A stretch of DNA of 46,917 bases from an uncultured Hyphomicrobiaceae bacterium (GTDB lineage Bacteria; Pseudomonadota; Alphaproteobacteria; Rhizobiales; CAMYJA01). Shown piece after piece: positions 9,411-43,547 of this stretch. Position 1 is the stretch's first letter; each line of letters begins with the position of its first letter. The stretch lies in assembly GCA_947258705.1 (NCBI GenBank), contig CAMYJA010000024.1, forward strand, positions 1 to 46,917, given 5' to 3'. The notes under the pieces are model-generated. The model was not told the DNA's origin and made no database searches. It was given only the letters and a program-made list of their open reading frames with translations. The position numbers and the translations under genes are program-made.

Positions 9411-11121
9411 AATTTACAACTTCCGCCTTTCCGCCCGGATGGGTTACCGCCCCGAAACGCGCCGGGCCGACCTGATCCGCATATTTCCTCAATACGCCAC
9501 TTTGATAGATATTTTCCGGCAACCGCCAGTTCGCCCGCCTCTCCTGGAGTTGTTCCTCGGTCAATTCGATGTCAAGAATGCCTTCATCGGCGTCGATCGA
9601 GATGATGTCGCCATTTTGTATGAGGCCGATGGGACCGCCTTCGGCCGCTTCGGGTCCGACATGGCCGATACAGAAACCACGCGTCGCGCCTGAAAAGCGC
9701 CCGTCCGTGATCAGCGCCACGTCATCGCCCGCGCCCTGGCCGTAAATAGCAGCCGTGGTCGAGAGCATTTCGCGCATTCCGGGACCACCCTTGGGCCCCT
9801 CATAGCGAATGACGATGACATCGCCTTTCTCATATTCGCGATTTTCAACCGCACGGAAGGCGTCTTCTTCGCAATCAAACACCCGCGCAGGGCCCTTGAA
9901 TTTCAAATTGGTCATGCCGGCGACCTTCACGATCGCACCATCGGGCGCAAGCGTGCCTCTGAGACCAACCACCCCACCTGTTGATGATAACGGATTTGAT
10001 ACCGGGTAGACAACCTTTTGATTTTCAAGGAATTTCACGTTTTCGAGATTTTCACCGATCGTCCTCCCGGTGACCGTCAGGCAGTCCTCATGGAGGTAGC
10101 CTCCTTCGAGGAGCGCTTTCATGATCACTTCGACGCCGCCGATGTCGTAGACATCCTTGGCGACATATTTTCCGCCGGGCTTGAGGTCGGCGATATAAGG
10201 CGTGCGCTTGAAGATCTCGGCGACATCGAACAGGTCCATGTCGATGCCGATTTCGTGCGCGATGGCGGGCAGGTGGAGCGCGCCATTGGTCGAACCGCCG
10301 GTAGCGGCAATGATGGTGGCGGCGTTTTCGAGCGCCTTGCGGGTGACGATATCGCGCGGGCGGATGCCGTCCGCGAGCAGGCGCATGACGGCGATGCCGC
10401 TATCGCGGGCATATTGATCGCGGCTTTCGTATGGAGCCGGTGCGCCGGCCGATCCCGGCAGCGCCAGGCCCATCGCCTCGGACACGCAGGCCATGGTGTT
10501 GGCCGTGAACTGGCCGCCACAGGATCCGGCACTCGGACAGGCGACGCATTCGAGGTCATGAAGTTCCTTTTCGGACATATTGCCGGCCGACCATTGTCCG
10601 ACGCCCTCAAAGACGTCGACGACGGTGACGTCCTTGCCCTTGTATTTTCCAGGCAGGATCGATCCCCCATACATGAAGACGCTCGGCACGTTGAGGCGCA
10701 CCATGGACATCATGATGCCAGGCAGGGACTTGTCGCAACCGGCGATGCCGACCATGGCGTCATAGCAATGGCCGCGCATTGTGAGTTCGATGGAATCGGC
10801 GATGACTTCGCGCGACACCAGGGACGATTTCATGCCCTGATGACCCATGGCGATGCCGTCGGTGACCGTGATGGTGCAGAATTCGCGCGGTGTGCCGTGG
10901 GATTCGGTAACGCCCGCCTTGGCGTGCTGGGCCTGACGCATGAGCGAAATATTACAGGGTGCTGCTTCATTCCAGCAGGACACGACGCCGACGAAAGGCT
11001 GATGGATCTCCTCCTCCGTCAGTCCCATGGCATAGTAATAGGACCGGTGCGGCGCCCGTTCCGGCCCCTCGGTCACATGCCTTGAGGGCAATTTCGATTT
11101 ATCAAATATCTTGGCGTCCAT
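9397..11121 (-). CDS. ilvD: Dihydroxy-acid dehydratase
   Basis: A 574-residue IlvD/Edd-family dehydratase that converts dihydroxy-isovalerate and dihydroxy-methylvalerate to the keto acids of valine and isoleucine synthesis. Three conserved cysteines that hold the iron-sulfur cluster are visible in [13 protein letters not shown] and [17 protein letters not shown], and the C-terminal ITDGRFSG motif is present. The start is placed at [27 protein letters not shown], where homologues begin and where AAGAAG lies upstream. The 40 residues before it look like untranslated leader. It is followed by an overlapping ExoR-like gene. IlvD rather than the sugar-acid dehydratases is the best reading of the sequence. 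Confidence 0.92.
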
Positions 11122-11605
11122 ATATATTCTTCTTGTATCAGGTCCGGTCGGCGGCATTTCAGCCTTTTCAGCCATTTTCGACCCGGATCCGGCAAGCCGT
11201 GATGAGCGGGATGAGCGGGATGACGAAGCATTCCGCCTCATATCCCATATTCAGGCTATCGTACATCAGGTCGGAGATGAGCGCGCTCCCACCCTTTCCA
11301 AACCGGGCAAAAAACCAAATAGGTTCCGGTCAAGTGACCAATGCGGGTGACCAATGCGGGATGGCGTCTCGAGGCTCCCCGGACTGTGTTCCAACTCCTT
11401 ATATTTGGACGATTTGTGGCATAATCTGGGCAGGATGACCAGATTTAGTTGCTGTCCTGCAACAGTGTGAATAAATTGCGACAGAGTGGCTCTGGATTGG
11501 CAGTTGGCCCTGTTTTTAACCCGGTTTCAGGTCCACGGGGCTCAGCTTATCCAAATCGATATTTGGGTTGTGTTGCTCTTGCGACCCGCCTGAACCAGCC
11601 TGCTA
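11122..11605. other. ilvD upstream region with a short tandem repeat
   Basis: No gene seen. The part next to 11122 must contain the ilvD promoter and leader. A perfect tandem repeat of GTGACCAATGCGG occupies 11334-11346 and 11347-11359, and near-repeats of GATGAGCGG lie around 11200-11220. An inverted repeat CCAAAT-CGAT-ATTTGG at 11551-11566 lies just downstream of the next minus-strand gene and could be its transcription stop, although no T run follows. Confidence 0.4.
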
Positions 11606-15005: not shown

Positions 15006-17675
<2,670 letters not shown>

Positions 17676-17798: not shown

Positions 17799-18911
17799 CT
17801 AGTCGGATTTTTTCGTTTGACCGAATTCATCCCGGAGTGCTTCCTCGACAAGACGCGGCATGTTTTCATCCAGCCATGCTTTTATCATCGGTTTTACGAG
17901 ATCGCGCAGTGCCCTCTCCGTGGGAGAGATGTCCGTGGGCGAGATAGCGTCTGCGGGTACCGGTTCGGCCGGGCCGCTGGCGACAGCCGCAGCGGCGGTC
18001 AGCGCCATCTCGGGCTCAAGCAGAGTCGGTTCGGCATCGCTTGCGCCGACAGGGGGCGGTGGCACATCGGACATGCCTGGCTCAGCCGGGCCCAGTGCGG
18101 CGTCATCTCGAGGCGTGCCTGCATCCGCCCCGCTTTCAAGGGGCGGCTCGTCGTGCGGACCGGATATCGTGGTCGTAACACCCTGCAATGCATCTTGAAG
18201 CGCGTCGACGTCGTTCGGACCGTCCTGAGGAACATCATCTGCATCCCCATCGGAAACAGGGGTTTTGAGCAGGCCCGGGCTCTCTGTTACGGACTTGTCA
18301 GCAACGGACTGGTCCGCAACGGACTGGTCCGCGACGGACTGGTCCGCGACGGGCGAATTCGCAAGCGCTTGTGAAACGTTTTCCGCGACATTACCCGGTG
18401 CTGATGACGGTGCCGGTTCAGGTGCCGGCCGCGTCATATGTCGCGGATCCGGCGCTCGCTGCGCGCCATTTGGCAACGGCTCGGTCAAATCCATGATCTT
18501 GCCGGCCCGCTTGGGGGGTGTCGGTGGCGGTGGTGGTGGTGTACGCGGTTGCTGGTTTTGCGCCAAAGGCAGGGGCACCGGCGGCACGGGGCCGGGAGGC
18601 GTCGGCGCCATGTCTGGCTGCCGCGGTATGGCGCCGGAAGGCGTCGGCGCCACATCAACTTCTGGCGGCATGGCTGCGGGAGCCACGTCTGCGGGAGCCG
18701 CATCTGCGGGCGACTGGTTGACGGGAGGTTTGGAACCCAGCGCACCGGCAAGTTTATGCGTCAGATCCGGCGACTTATTGTCGCTCGCATCCGTCTGGCC
18801 CGCTTGTTCCCCGTGTTTCGCGGGTGTTTCATTTCCCGCAGGTTCTTCCGAGATTATCTGACGAATTGAATCGAGTATGTCGTCCATACTCGAATCTGAA
18901 TCCTTATCCAT
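17799..18911 (-). CDS. popZ: PopZ-family (DUF2497) polar organizing protein
   Basis: A 370-residue PopZ-like scaffold. The N-terminal helix SSMDDILDSIRQIISEE (8-24) matches the client-binding helix of Caulobacter PopZ. The C-terminal helices ERALRDLVKPMIKAWLDENMPRLVEEALRDEF (about 332-363) match the oligomerisation region. Between them is a long disordered Pro/Ala/acid-rich linker that is about twice as long as in Caulobacter PopZ. It includes four 15-base repeats (18286-18345) encoding SVADQ units. PopZ forms polar condensates that tether chromosome origins and cell-cycle regulators. It lies between tolC and valS, the usual place for this gene. Confidence 0.88.
   Translation of the reverse strand: MDKDSDSSMDDILDSIRQIISEEPAGNETPAKHGEQAGQTDASDNKSPDLTHKLAGALGSKPPVNQSPADAAPADVAPAAMPPEVDVAPTPSGAIPRQPDMAPTPPGPVPPVPLPLAQNQQPRTPPPPPPTPPKRAGKIMDLTEPLPNGAQRAPDPRHMTRPAPEPAPSSAPGNVAENVSQALANSPVADQSVADQSVADQSVADKSVTESPGLLKTPVSDGDADDVPQDGPNDVDALQDALQGVTTTISGPHDEPPLESGADAGTPRDDAALGPAEPGMSDVPPPPVGASDAEPTLLEPEMALTAAAAVASGPAEPVPADAISPTDISPTERALRDLVKPMIKAWLDENMPRLVEEALRDEFGQTKKSD
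18286..18345. repeat. In-frame 15-bp tandem repeats in popZ
   Basis: Four head-to-tail units related to GCAACGGACTGGTCC encode repeated VADQS pentapeptides in the disordered linker. The second and third units differ by a single base, so copy number is likely to vary among strains. Confidence 0.8.
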
Positions 18912-39929: not shown

Positions 39930-40740
39930 AGCATTTATTCTCCCTTCCAATGCAACCGGCGGGCGGCCGGCTGTTCACAGGTGCGACCTTTTATCTTCCG
40001 CGGAAACTTGACTATGACGGTTCGCGGGTGCACAATTAAGACAGTATTCATTCAGTGAAGGAGGCTAACAAAATGACTCCACCTGACAGTACCGAGCCGT
40101 CGGTTTAAACGCGATACCATCGCGGAACCAAGGACGGCACTTACCCTACAATTTAATCTAAACGTGAAGAGTTTTGCGCTTCGTGCAGACTGAAGTAAGC
40201 AAAAGCTGCATGGCAAAGACGCAGGTTGGGATGAGCGGGTGTGTAATGGCGATTATGTTGCCACTGCCCGGAATTTTAATCGCGGTGCCAAGCGAAGTTG
40301 TATAGCTCGAATAAACTGAAGTGTTCAGTCAAGGGTTAACAGGAGGACGAAGAGCCAGGTCGAACAGACCGATGAACCGATTAATTGGAGACAGGACAAG
40401 CCGGGAAAGCCATTCTGGGTGATCCGGCAAGCGGGCTGAGGCCCGTTGCTCAGAGTATGTATGAGTATCCGGTCGAGAATGAAAGCGTCAATGAATGAAA
40501 GCATCAATGGCGATTTTATTACGCGAACTGGAAATCATCCCTCCGAAAAGAGCAGTCCGGACCAAAGCGCATTCCGTGTTGAACCCACGGAGAAGGCACC
40601 GGTCAATATGTCTTAGGATCAATACGTCCTTGGGATGTATTTTGGTACGATGCCGCGCAAAGGTGCATATGGCAAAGGTGCAAAGGGCGTAACTTTGTAC
40701 CAAATATGGACCGGATCGGTGAGTGGTTGTTTGATGAGAT

Positions 40741-40824
40741 GCCTCGACCCATCGCAAGAAAACCCAATGTGAAGAGCACACAGGAGCCCGGTGGATTGCA
40801 TGCAGTCACCGGGTTTCCTGCTGT
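40741..40824. repeat. 84-bp direct repeat, left copy
   Basis: This matches 43386-43469 at 81 of 84 positions in the same orientation. It contains the inverted repeat CCCGGTG (40787-40793) / CACCGGG (40807-40813) around a GATTGCATGCAGT centre with its own GCATGC palindrome. The two copies bracket the whole arsenic operon. Confidence 0.9.
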
Positions 40825-41156
40825 TTGACGGGGAAAAAAACGCGCAGGAAAGGAAGTGCCGGGTCTGAATCGCCCCTAGAGCACGATCAACCTGCGGGAT
40901 CGTTTCTGCTCTGGTCGGTTGCGGCCAATTGGCCTTGGAAATTCTCAAGCCCGGTGATCCAATGATGGGTAGCGCCTCATGTGGAACGGACAGCAACTCA
41001 AAACGGGGACATTTCAGAGGAGCAGATCAGTCGCAATACAGCCAAAACAACACCTCTCATAATTCAAGACTTTTGAGAGGGTCGGCGGCAGCTTTTTGGT
41101 GAGGTATGCGGAAAGTTGCCCGCTTGGCGGGTATGGAGAAAAATGACCCGAACCGG

Positions 41157-41178
41157 AAATTGATCAGCTGATCAATTT
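41157..41178 (-). terminator. 22-bp perfect palindrome after acr3
   Basis: Bases 41157-41178 are a perfect palindrome (AAATTGATCAG and its complement) lying 25 bases after the acr3 stop on the minus strand. It probably ends the ars transcript, though the T stretch after the stem is short. Confidence 0.55.
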
Positions 41179-41203
41179 TCAAGAAGCCAGAAGAACCGTG
41201 TTT

Positions 41204-42274
41204 TTAAACGCGACTTTTTTTCTCATACCAGCCCTTGGAGCTGTTGACGATTTTCACTACCGATAGCATGACCGGTACTTCAACGAGCACGCCAACGACA
41301 GTGGCGAGAGCTGCCCCTGATTCAAATCCAAATAGAGCGATAGCGGCGGCAACGGCGAGTTCAAAGAAATTGCTCGCGCCGATCAGAGCCGATGGCGCTG
41401 CAACGCAGTGGGCAACTCCGAATTGGCGATTGAGTAGATATGCAAGCCCCGAATTGAAATAGACCTGGATCAGGATTGGTACAGCCAATAATCCAATTAT
41501 CATAGGATGCGCGATGATCTCTCCGCCCTGAAAGCCGAACAGAAGTAAAAGTGTTGCCAACAGCGCCATGATCGAAGGGCTTTCCAGCAGGTGTATGGTC
41601 TCGTCAAGCCGAGACTGCCCGCCACTATGCATGATCATACGTCGCCATATCTGGGCGGCAATCACCGGCAATACAATATAGAGAACCACCGAGATAAGCA
41701 GCGTTTCCCATGGTACGGTGATCGAAGAAATACCAAGTAGGAAGGCGACAATTGGAGCAAAGGCAAACACCATGATCACGTCATTCAACGCTACCTGCGA
41801 TAGGGTAAAGTTGGCGTCGCCATCCGACAGGTTGCTCCATACGAACACCATGGCTGTGCAAGGCGCGGCAGCAAGAATGATGAGTCCAGCGATATAGCTG
41901 TCGACCTGAGTTTCCGGTAAATATGGACGGAACAGCCAGCCGATGAAAATCCAACCGAGAAGCGCCATCGAGAACGGCTTGACTGCCCAATTGATAAACA
42001 GGGTCACCCCAATGCCGCGCCAATGCTCACGCACCTGATGCAGGGCGGAGAAATCAACCTTGAGCAACATAGGAATGATCATTAGCCATATGAGGATGGC
42101 GACGGGAATGTTAACCTTGGCAAATTCCCAATGCCCCAATTGCTGAAACAGTGCCGGAAATAAATGGCCGAGGGTGATACCAGCCACGATGCAAAGTGCT
42201 ACCCAAAGAGTCAAATAGCGAGCGAACAACCCCATCGGTTTGCGCGCTTCGATAACGGCCGTTTGTTCAATCAT
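41204..42274 (-). CDS. acr3: Arsenite efflux permease, ACR3 family
   Basis: A 356-residue ACR3-type arsenite exporter with ten predicted membrane helices. Cys139 in AAAPCTAMVFVWSNL is the conserved fourth-helix cysteine needed for arsenite transport, and GASNFFELAVAAAI holds the conserved late glutamate. The protein expels As(III) produced by the ArsC encoded just upstream. The two genes overlap by 4 bases (ATGA). Base composition is more A+T rich than the flanking genes, consistent with acquisition. It should not be confused with ArsB, which is unrelated in sequence. Confidence 0.95.
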   Translation of the reverse strand: MIEQTAVIEARKPMGLFARYLTLWVALCIVAGITLGHLFPALFQQLGHWEFAKVNIPVAILIWLMIIPMLLKVDFSALHQVREHWRGIGVTLFINWAVKPFSMALLGWIFIGWLFRPYLPETQVDSYIAGLIILAAAPCTAMVFVWSNLSDGDANFTLSQVALNDVIMVFAFAPIVAFLLGISSITVPWETLLISVVLYIVLPVIAAQIWRRMIMHSGGQSRLDETIHLLESPSIMALLATLLLLFGFQGGEIIAHPMIIGLLAVPILIQVYFNSGLAYLLNRQFGVAHCVAAPSALIGASNFFELAVAAAIALFGFESGAALATVVGVLVEVPVMLSVVKIVNSSKGWYEKKSRV

Positions 42275-42783
42275 GATTCATCTTCGCCAGCCTGTAACTT
42301 GCCGATGGCATCGAGTTCCGCTTTCAGCGCGGTGTCATCGAGTTCATCTAGGTTTAGGTTCATGAATGCGCCAATACGCCTTTCGAGTTGTGCGTAGGCG
42401 GTGCGGAAGGCCTGCATTTTGTCTTTATCCGAACCGTCGGCAACGGCCGGGTCAGGGATGCCCCAATGCGCCTTTGCCGGATGACCTGGCCAGATCGGAC
42501 AGACTTCACCGGCGGCGTTATCGCAGACCGTAAAGACGAAGTCGATCTGCGGCGCGACGTCTCCAGAAAACTCGTCCCACGATTTGGAGCGTAGGTCGGC
42601 CGTATTGTATCCTTTTTCCTCAAGCAGCTTGAGTGCAAAAGGATTGACTTTGCCGGTCGGTGTACTACCCGCGCTGTAACCCTTGTAATGGCCCTCGCCG
42701 AGCCGGTTGATCAGGCACTCTCCCAAAATGCTCCGAGCGGAATTTCCCGTACACAGGATCAGGACGTTTGTTTTATTAGTCAT
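42271..42783 (-). CDS. arsC: Arsenate reductase, low-molecular-weight phosphatase type
   Basis: A 170-residue arsenate reductase of the LMW tyrosine-phosphatase fold. The P-loop CTGNSARS begins with nucleophile Cys11. Cys87 and Cys94 in FTVCDNAAGEVCPIWPG form the disulfide relay known from thioredoxin-coupled enzymes, and HWGIPDPA is typical of ArsC. It reduces arsenate to arsenite for ACR3. The ATG at 42783 (MTNKTNVLILC) is preferred because the fold starts there; an in-frame start 6 codons earlier exists. It is the second gene of arsR-arsC-acr3. Confidence 0.94.
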   Translation of the reverse strand: MTNKTNVLILCTGNSARSILGECLINRLGEGHYKGYSAGSTPTGKVNPFALKLLEEKGYNTADLRSKSWDEFSGDVAPQIDFVFTVCDNAAGEVCPIWPGHPAKAHWGIPDPAVADGSDKDKMQAFRTAYAQLERRIGAFMNLNLDELDDTALKAELDAIGKLQAGEDES

Positions 42784-42804
42784 TGCGGTGAGCATCTCCA
42801 AGAT

Positions 42805-43137
42805 TTAGCAGGCTGGGATGGTTTCTTGGATTAGCGCTCCGCAGGCATCGGGATTGCCTTTGCAGCAATCCTGCGTGAGGTAGAGGACGAGACTCCGTAT
42901 ACCATCCATATCGGCGGTATAGATGATCAAGCGACCTTCCCGGCGCGATGTGATCAATCCACCACGGACGAGAATTCCCAAATGTGTAGATAAGGTGTTC
43001 TGGGGAACGCCAATTTCCCTAGCGATCTCTCCGGCCTTCATGCCCTCAGGTCCATGGCGGATCAGTAGTCTGAATACAGTCAGCCTTGTTGGTTGGGCAA
43101 GCGCCGAAAAAGCATCAATAGCGTTCTGTGATTCCAT
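42805..43137 (-). CDS. arsR: ArsR-family arsenic-responsive repressor
   Basis: A 110-residue winged-helix repressor (SmtB/ArsR fold) with AGEIAREIGVPQNTLSTHLGILVRGGLI as the DNA-reading region. It lacks the ELCVCDL site of E. coli ArsR. Instead, cysteines 91, 92 and 98 (DCCKGNPDAC) near the C-terminus have the same spacing as the As(III) site reported for Acidithiobacillus ArsR (95, 96, 102). Cys110 is the last residue. Arsenite binding should release it from the operator that overlaps its own start codon. It is the first gene of the operon. No Shine-Dalgarno sequence precedes the ATG. Confidence 0.93.
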   Translation of the reverse strand: MESQNAIDAFSALAQPTRLTVFRLLIRHGPEGMKAGEIAREIGVPQNTLSTHLGILVRGGLITSRREGRLIIYTADMDGIRSLVLYLTQDCCKGNPDACGALIQETIPAC

Positions 43138-43173
43138 ATATCGAGAATTAACGATATATTTATTCTATGTCAA
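43136..43173 (-). promoter_or_regulatory. ars operator-promoter overlapping the arsR start
   Basis: A perfect inverted repeat ATATATCG (43136-43143) / CGATATAT (43152-43159) includes the first bases of the arsR start codon. On the minus strand a consensus TTGACA lies at 43168-43173, and a weak -10 (TTAATT/TAATTC) falls 16-17 bases later inside the repeat. Bound ArsR would block the -10 region. Confidence 0.75.
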
Positions 43174-43547
43174 GGTTTCTCGTGCTGGCGCCCCTCGAAA
43201 AGGCTTAGCCTGTTCTCCATCCCGTCAGGCCACAAACTTCCGTTGTTGGCACTTAGTCCCTTATGGGAGGGTGTGAAACGGCCCGATTTTGTCTCTCATA
43301 TATTCCACGTTCGCACTCTCACGAGTTATAATTAAATTATGAGAATGGGGCAGAGCTTACACAATCGCGCCGATTGCGCGATATGGCCTCGACCCATCGC
43401 AAGAAAACCCAATGTGTAGAGCACGTAGGAGCCCGGTGGATTGCATGCAGTCACCGGGTTTCCTGCTGTCCAGGGGAACGGGGGCGTAACTGTTTATGGG
43501 GGAAAGGGGAAAGAGGGCGCATTTGGCCTGCCCGCGGCCGGACTGCG
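43138..43547. other. Region between arsR and the TetR gene
   Basis: It holds the ars promoter and operator at its left end, about 200 bases without recognisable features, and the right copy of the 84-bp repeat. Past the repeat the sequence returns to G-rich spacer leading to the end of the TetR gene. No gene is supported. Confidence 0.5.
43386..43469. repeat. 84-bp direct repeat, right copy
   Basis: This is the partner of 40741-40824, differing by A/T at unit position 32 and AC/GT at positions 40-41. The internal CCCGGTG / CACCGGG inverted repeat is fully conserved. Similarity stops abruptly on both sides. Confidence 0.9.

Follow-up and report, generated by a model that had tools for sequence, protein, structure and literature searches.

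The locus analysed here raises the question of how an arsenic-resistance operon came to lie between two directly repeated copies of one short sequence, and whether it could leave by the same copies. The window, that is, the whole stretch of DNA analysed (46,917 nucleotides), is an entire contig of an uncultured Hyphomicrobiaceae bacterium.

The repeat pair and the operon between its copies

The two repeat units are:

40741..40824, plus strand: left repeat unit (R1), 84 bp, identical to R2 at 81 of 84 positions
43386..43469, plus strand: right repeat unit (R2), 84 bp, in the same orientation as R1

A preliminary description of this DNA had reported sharp-ended 84-bp direct repeats matching at 81 of 84 positions, and both a repeat search and a script check confirmed it. 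The mismatches fall at unit positions 32, 40 and 41 (3.6% divergence), and the likeness is confined to the 84 columns, the flanking sequence being unlike beyond both edges. From the start of R1 to the start of R2 there are 2645 bp, with 2561 bp of unique DNA between the units. No exact repeat in the window is longer than their 43-nt core; in 20 first-order random sequences matched for length, the longest measured 14–17 nt, so the pair is not due to chance. As background, 400 kb of the 2.77-Mb genome, taken as 20 pieces of 20 kb each, were searched against themselves by blastn, and only one direct repeat reached 40 nt and 85% identity with copies within 8 kb. Together, these two comparisons indicate that the R1/R2 pair is real and unusual for its genome. 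The one background repeat measures 50 nt at 86% identity and is located in piece 20001–40000 of contig 7 (L107), at 9422–9471 and 9857–9906 of that piece. Elsewhere in the window, tandem repeats of 15 bp at 18289–18363 were detected as four overlapping 30-nt copies.

The repeats enclose the whole arsR-arsC-acr3 operon, as had been proposed, and all three genes are encoded on the minus strand:

41157..41178, no strand: perfect 22-bp palindrome AAATTGATCAGCTGATCAATTT, just downstream of acr3
41204..42274, minus strand: acr3, arsenite efflux transporter (TIGR00832, above cut-off)
42271..42783, minus strand: arsC, arsenate reductase of the low-molecular-weight phosphatase type (PF01451)
42805..43137, minus strand: arsR, ArsR/SmtB-family regulator (NF033788, above cut-off)
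43136..43159, no strand: inverted repeat ATATATCG...CGATATAT, covering the arsR start

The best NCBIfam match of ArsC was TIGR02691, below the cut-off of that model, and for its start we prefer the ATG at 42783 to the listed TTG at 42801. The acr3 gene was the sole match to itself in its genome at E up to 1. We take the inverted repeat at the arsR start to be a candidate ArsR-operator-like motif, and the 22-bp palindrome is possibly an operon end or a binding site. With these two signals, the operon appears whole and equipped with its own regulation, and both units are external to it.

The composition of the bracketed DNA is mildly in keeping with acquired DNA. The GC contents of its three pieces are 0.512, 0.524 and 0.464, compared with 0.614 in phoX (PF05787), the flanking gene on the left, and 0.595 in the 669 bp to the right of R2, the side that carries a TetR-family gene and an epimerase gene. 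The ars genes have a GC content of 51–55% and a GC3 of 0.54–0.61; in the other 23 ORFs computed, GC3 is 0.61–0.75 in 22 and 0.56 in one. Low GC also extends outside the repeats:

39930..40740, no strand: AT-rich stretch of 811 bp between phoX and R1, GC 0.496

As AT-rich DNA begins about 800 bp to the left of R1, the repeats do not lie at both composition borders. The acquired DNA could thus extend past the bracket, in which case R1 would lie inside it. The reading frames tried in the 811-bp stretch matched no Pfam or PHROG family, no gene was recognised, and no close copy was present in the same genome. Against plasmids, blastn returned only short, weak matches in nine records (best E 0.02). 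A decayed gene was considered for this stretch and rejected on these family and plasmid searches.

Distribution of the unit and of its neighbours

Each unit carries the arms CCCGGTG and CACCGGG, 13 nt apart, as previously noted:

40787..40813, no strand: imperfect palindrome of R1, CCCGGTG, 13 nt with a GCATGC centre, CACCGGG
43432..43458, no strand: palindrome of R2, identical to that of R1

The palindrome is a modest one: perfect arms 7 bp or longer were present in 5.4% of the shuffled units, in 7.0% of random 84-mers and in 9.6% of the real 84-mers from the window, and a 7-bp arm pair alone is weak evidence. The pattern CCGGTG N6-16 CACCGG was found at eight places in the genome, both units included, and a reversed control pattern at two; none of the other six places has the centre of the unit, and the palindrome was rejected as a genome-wide family. 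Integron attC sites are recognised by RYYYAAC and GTTRRRY boxes, which visual inspection of the unit did not reveal, and this identity was rejected, as was that of a known structured RNA, no Rfam family fitting the unit even at E up to 1. No tRNA gene was found at the unit. The unit has no terminal inverted repeats: its ends match at 6 of 20 positions at best, and shuffles average 8.1. The borders of R1, R2, the composite and the insert were each examined to within two bases for a target-site duplication of 3–12 bp, and none was present.

The genome contains two copies of the unit, both at the ars operon. At E 0.001, none was retrieved from 100 other genomes of the order or the 397 others of the phylum sample, and plasmids gave no match. 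The class sample, searched at E up to 1, gave matches in 137 of 384 other genomes (138 of 385 with its own), the lowest E among those listed being 0.0036 (21 bases aligned) and the longest alignment having 58 bases at 76%; phages gave four weak partial matches (best E 0.2). These class and phage matches look like chance. Exact patterns, which miss diverged copies, found neither 25 fixed bases of the unit in viral and GTDB contigs nor its first 31 bases in viral contigs. The pattern GGTGNNNTGCATGCANNCACC occurred in four viral contigs, by our estimate about the chance expectation for 16 fixed bases. The order, class and phylum samples overlap, and the collections searched may omit records of the genome itself. 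Among the papers listed by topic searches of the open-access literature, none describes this 84-bp repeat, which does not prove its absence from print. Confinement of the repeat to this site had been named beforehand as half of what would speak against a mobile or acquired origin, and it held in the collections searched.

No transposase or integrase family was matched by the ORFs tested within and beside the bracket, and for these ORFs the corresponding statement of the preliminary description stands. The genome encodes four tyrosine recombinases, none of them on the ars contig. Two are XerC-like and XerD-like, each just below the cut-off of the XerC or XerD model, and one of the Xer-like proteins lies above the cut-off of a broader tyrosine-recombinase model. 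The two non-Xer recombinases are encoded near the end of contig 7; one has an arm-binding domain and the other is only 249 aa long. They are located at 10389–11138 and 15055–16257 of piece 262000–278436 (L075), possibly within an integrated element. Neither serine recombinases nor Y1 transposases were detected in the genome.

The Acr3 query matched 193 of 397 genomes of an order sample, its own included. We compared 21 ars stretches from other genomes (G012 and 20 more best matches), each with about 5 kb on either side of the operon and five of them shorter at contig ends. Around acr3, none showed direct repeats that reached 40 nt and 85% identity; one contained a repeat of 102 columns, both copies of which lie on the same side of acr3. 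With the stretch from a further genome, G014, added, neither the 84-bp unit (blastn, E 0.1) nor phoX, the TetR gene, the epimerase gene or the DUF938 gene (tblastn, E 1e-5) was found beside ars in any of the 22. Since the flanking genes of the window are absent there, ars is located elsewhere in those 22 stretches; the comparison says nothing about when ars arrived at the present site.

Among the matches listed, the most similar acr3 is that of G014 (82% over 264 aa), whose contig 57 ends inside the gene. The arsR of G014 is unlike that of the window (33% over 64 aa) and lies on the opposite strand, and its stretch has no match to the unit. Because arsC-acr3 is closest in this genome yet arsR looks unrelated, one of the two lines has presumably swapped its regulator. 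At the nucleotide level, 406 plasmid records matched the ars genes at 60–80% identity, none over 80% of the stretch; the best (66.8% over 55% of the stretch) lies in arsC-acr3. As these matches are all partial and at 60–80%, no near donor is known.

An empty site was sought through the epimerase, the query for which matched 6 of 397 genomes at E 1e-30, its own included, and a further search gave six matches at 38% identity or less. Only G012 offers a strong counterpart of the TetR-epimerase pair (65% and 70%), and G008 a weak one. In G012, the pair has neither phoX nor ars alongside, and the ars operon is on another contig. In four of the five relatives with the epimerase (L048, L050–L052; the fifth is G092), no phoX or ars gene was found in the stretches compared, two of which are short or near a contig end. 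None of the relatives listed belongs to the family of the genome under study.

Arrival of the operon and competing explanations

We favour, at a probability of roughly one half, the explanation that arrival of the ars DNA duplicated the unit, in its simplest form through one crossover between an ars circle and a unit already in place. The site would have started with a single 84-bp unit between phoX and the TetR gene. Foreign AT-rich DNA with arsR-arsC-acr3 would then have entered in an event leaving a unit at each end, the simplest route being a Campbell-type insertion in which the unit of the ars circle crossed over once with the resident one. The outcome would be the present ars cassette, 2561 bp of unique DNA with direct repeats on both sides and no recognised recombination gene. 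From there, homologous recombination or RecA-independent slippage could excise the cassette as a circle and leave one unit behind. The data directly show the repeats, the operon, its composition and the lack of further copies in the genome; we infer the order of events, the crossover, the past circle and the present ability to be lost. Most likely, the bracket is both the scar of an insertion and a potential route for loss. The circle release foreseen in the preliminary description follows from geometry, R1 by R2 recombination giving a 2645-bp circle with one unit. Its suggestion that the repeats are a trace of the arrival of the operon fits the AT-rich bracket and the finding that the flanking genes of the window lie beside ars in none of the 22 stretches.

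Several findings support the crossover. The sharp-edged repeats enclose exactly one complete operon, the ars genes are low in GC and GC3, and the unit is confined to one site in the genome. No direct repeats of 40 nt or more bracket acr3 in any of the 21 ars stretches compared (several of which end at contig ends), and G012 has its TetR-epimerase pair and its ars genes on separate contigs. The lack of target-site duplications and terminal inverted repeats favours crossover over transposition. The explanation is weakened by the AT-rich DNA that extends about 800 bp beyond R1, by the 3.6% difference between the copies and by the fact that no plasmid record contains the cassette. Neither an empty site nor a free circle was seen. 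In addition, 84 bp is short for homologous recombination, which counts against a crossover. The divergence of the copies suggests an old, largely fixed scar and argues against frequent exchange now. Further support comes from precedents in print, namely the H47 island with the pUY-FRT plasmid model (PMC5426353) and the MITESen1 composites (PMC13367494), as far as the relevant sections of these papers describe them. For direct-orientation MITESen1 composites, the authors speculate that a cargo circle with one repeat inserted at a resident single repeat. MITESen1 differs in that it derives from Tn3, is 256 bp long and possesses terminal inverted repeats, which the unit lacks, and its composites are flanked by 5-bp direct repeats, of which the ars bracket has none (both from the composite sections of PMC13367494).

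The main rival takes R1 and R2 as the attL and attR of a decayed, CIME-like integrative element, the tyrosine recombinase of which would have integrated the ars DNA at the palindromic core and has since been lost or acts in trans. We consider this unlikely, although direct repeats stand at both ends and the inverted arms about the centre are the same in both copies. The sequence CCCGGTGGAT - 7 bp - AGTCACCGGG might represent two inverted core sites that flank an overlap. The two non-Xer recombinases that contig 7 encodes, besides the XerC-like and XerD-like proteins of the genome, also favour this rival. Nevertheless, no integrase lies on the ars contig; the genome has no third copy of the unit, and hence none near the contig-7 integrases; and neither a tRNA gene nor an Rfam RNA coincides with the unit. 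Its 84 bp exceed the 8–60 bp stated for such repeats in the pertinent part of PMC5704250. According to the same part, CIMEs retain attL and attR and are missing their integration genes; the ars bracket would be similar if its direct repeats were att sites, and differs in showing no sign of an ancestral integrase or of a target gene end.

Alternatively, the unit might be a functional hairpin (an RNA or a terminator) that was duplicated locally, the operon lying between the copies by accident or being insulated by them, which we regard as doubtful. The unit folds slightly better than shuffles: as RNA (90 nt), the plus strand gives z -1.9 for R1 and -2.4 for R2 and the minus strand less (z -0.8 and -0.9), and as DNA (84 nt) z ranges from -0.9 to -1.7 (plus strand, R1 -1.7 and R2 -0.9). 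The three differences between the copies fall within 10 nt outside the palindrome and, by eye on the RNA folds, keep the outer stem paired, which speaks for a hairpin; such clustering has a chance of about 0.03 for three independent events and about 0.20 for two. A functional hairpin would agree less well with the lack of an Rfam match, with flanks that share no sequence able to carry a common promoter, and with the lack of a homologue above chance in the collections searched. No terminator was called at either unit, by a scan that takes loops of 3–8 only and could miss this hairpin.

An improbable further reading is a minimal ars 'satellite' that consists of cargo and one undescribed 84-bp palindromic att site, with a resident tyrosine recombinase mobilising it in trans. 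Least probable of all are two miniature transposable elements flanking the operon (a MITE or TIME-COMP-like composite): the unit is small, palindrome-bearing and without a recognised gene, its two copies surround cargo, and truncated MITEs may lose their ends (as stated in the relevant part of PMC10969869), but the MITE/REP identity was rejected, without terminal inverted repeats, target duplications at R1, R2 or the composite, copies beyond two or a Y1 transposase. The absence of terminal inverted repeats and target-site duplications makes the unit unlike a dispersed mobile element, and with two copies and no relatives above chance the small non-autonomous element proposed at the outset was not borne out.

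Relation to known repeat-bracketed segments

The arrangement is genuine but similar to structures that have been described before. In its present state, it is another repeat-bracketed resistance segment without its own recombinase, in a genome whose listed relatives are all from other families. If the repeats allow the cassette to be lost or gained, one step would suffice to remove the only acr3 arsenite exporter found in the genome, and metal resistance would have a simple, transposase-free route to come and go.

The H47 genomic island of E. coli carries a microcin as cargo. It has no recombinase of its own, and its RecA-independent excision was detected by PCR (PMC5426353). Its imperfect repeats are 144 and 148 bp long and those of the pUY-FRT plasmid model are perfect and 46 bp long; both, in the excision sections of that paper, are cases of short direct repeats recombining without RecA or a dedicated enzyme. 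The ars bracket is similar in lacking a recombinase and in the scale of its direct repeats. It differs from H47, the repeats of which lie 12,635 bp apart and have common stretches of only 11–20 bp, and the excision of which was tested, whereas the bracket is described from its sequence.

The ars bracket is probably an unconventional circularizable structure (UCS) and not a new kind, a candidate by its geometry. In UCSs (Palmieri et al. 2013, as cited in the corresponding passages of PMC7843796 and PMC8401462), excision is the defining feature and was demonstrated by PCR; here, the circle is predicted by the geometry. A resistance cargo segment lies between direct repeats, and no recombinase gene was found in the segment. 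The repeats of UCSs are usually long, more than 100 times att sites, and can hold genes, according to the passage of PMC7843796 that treats them, which gives no minimum length, whereas those of the ars bracket measure 84 bp.
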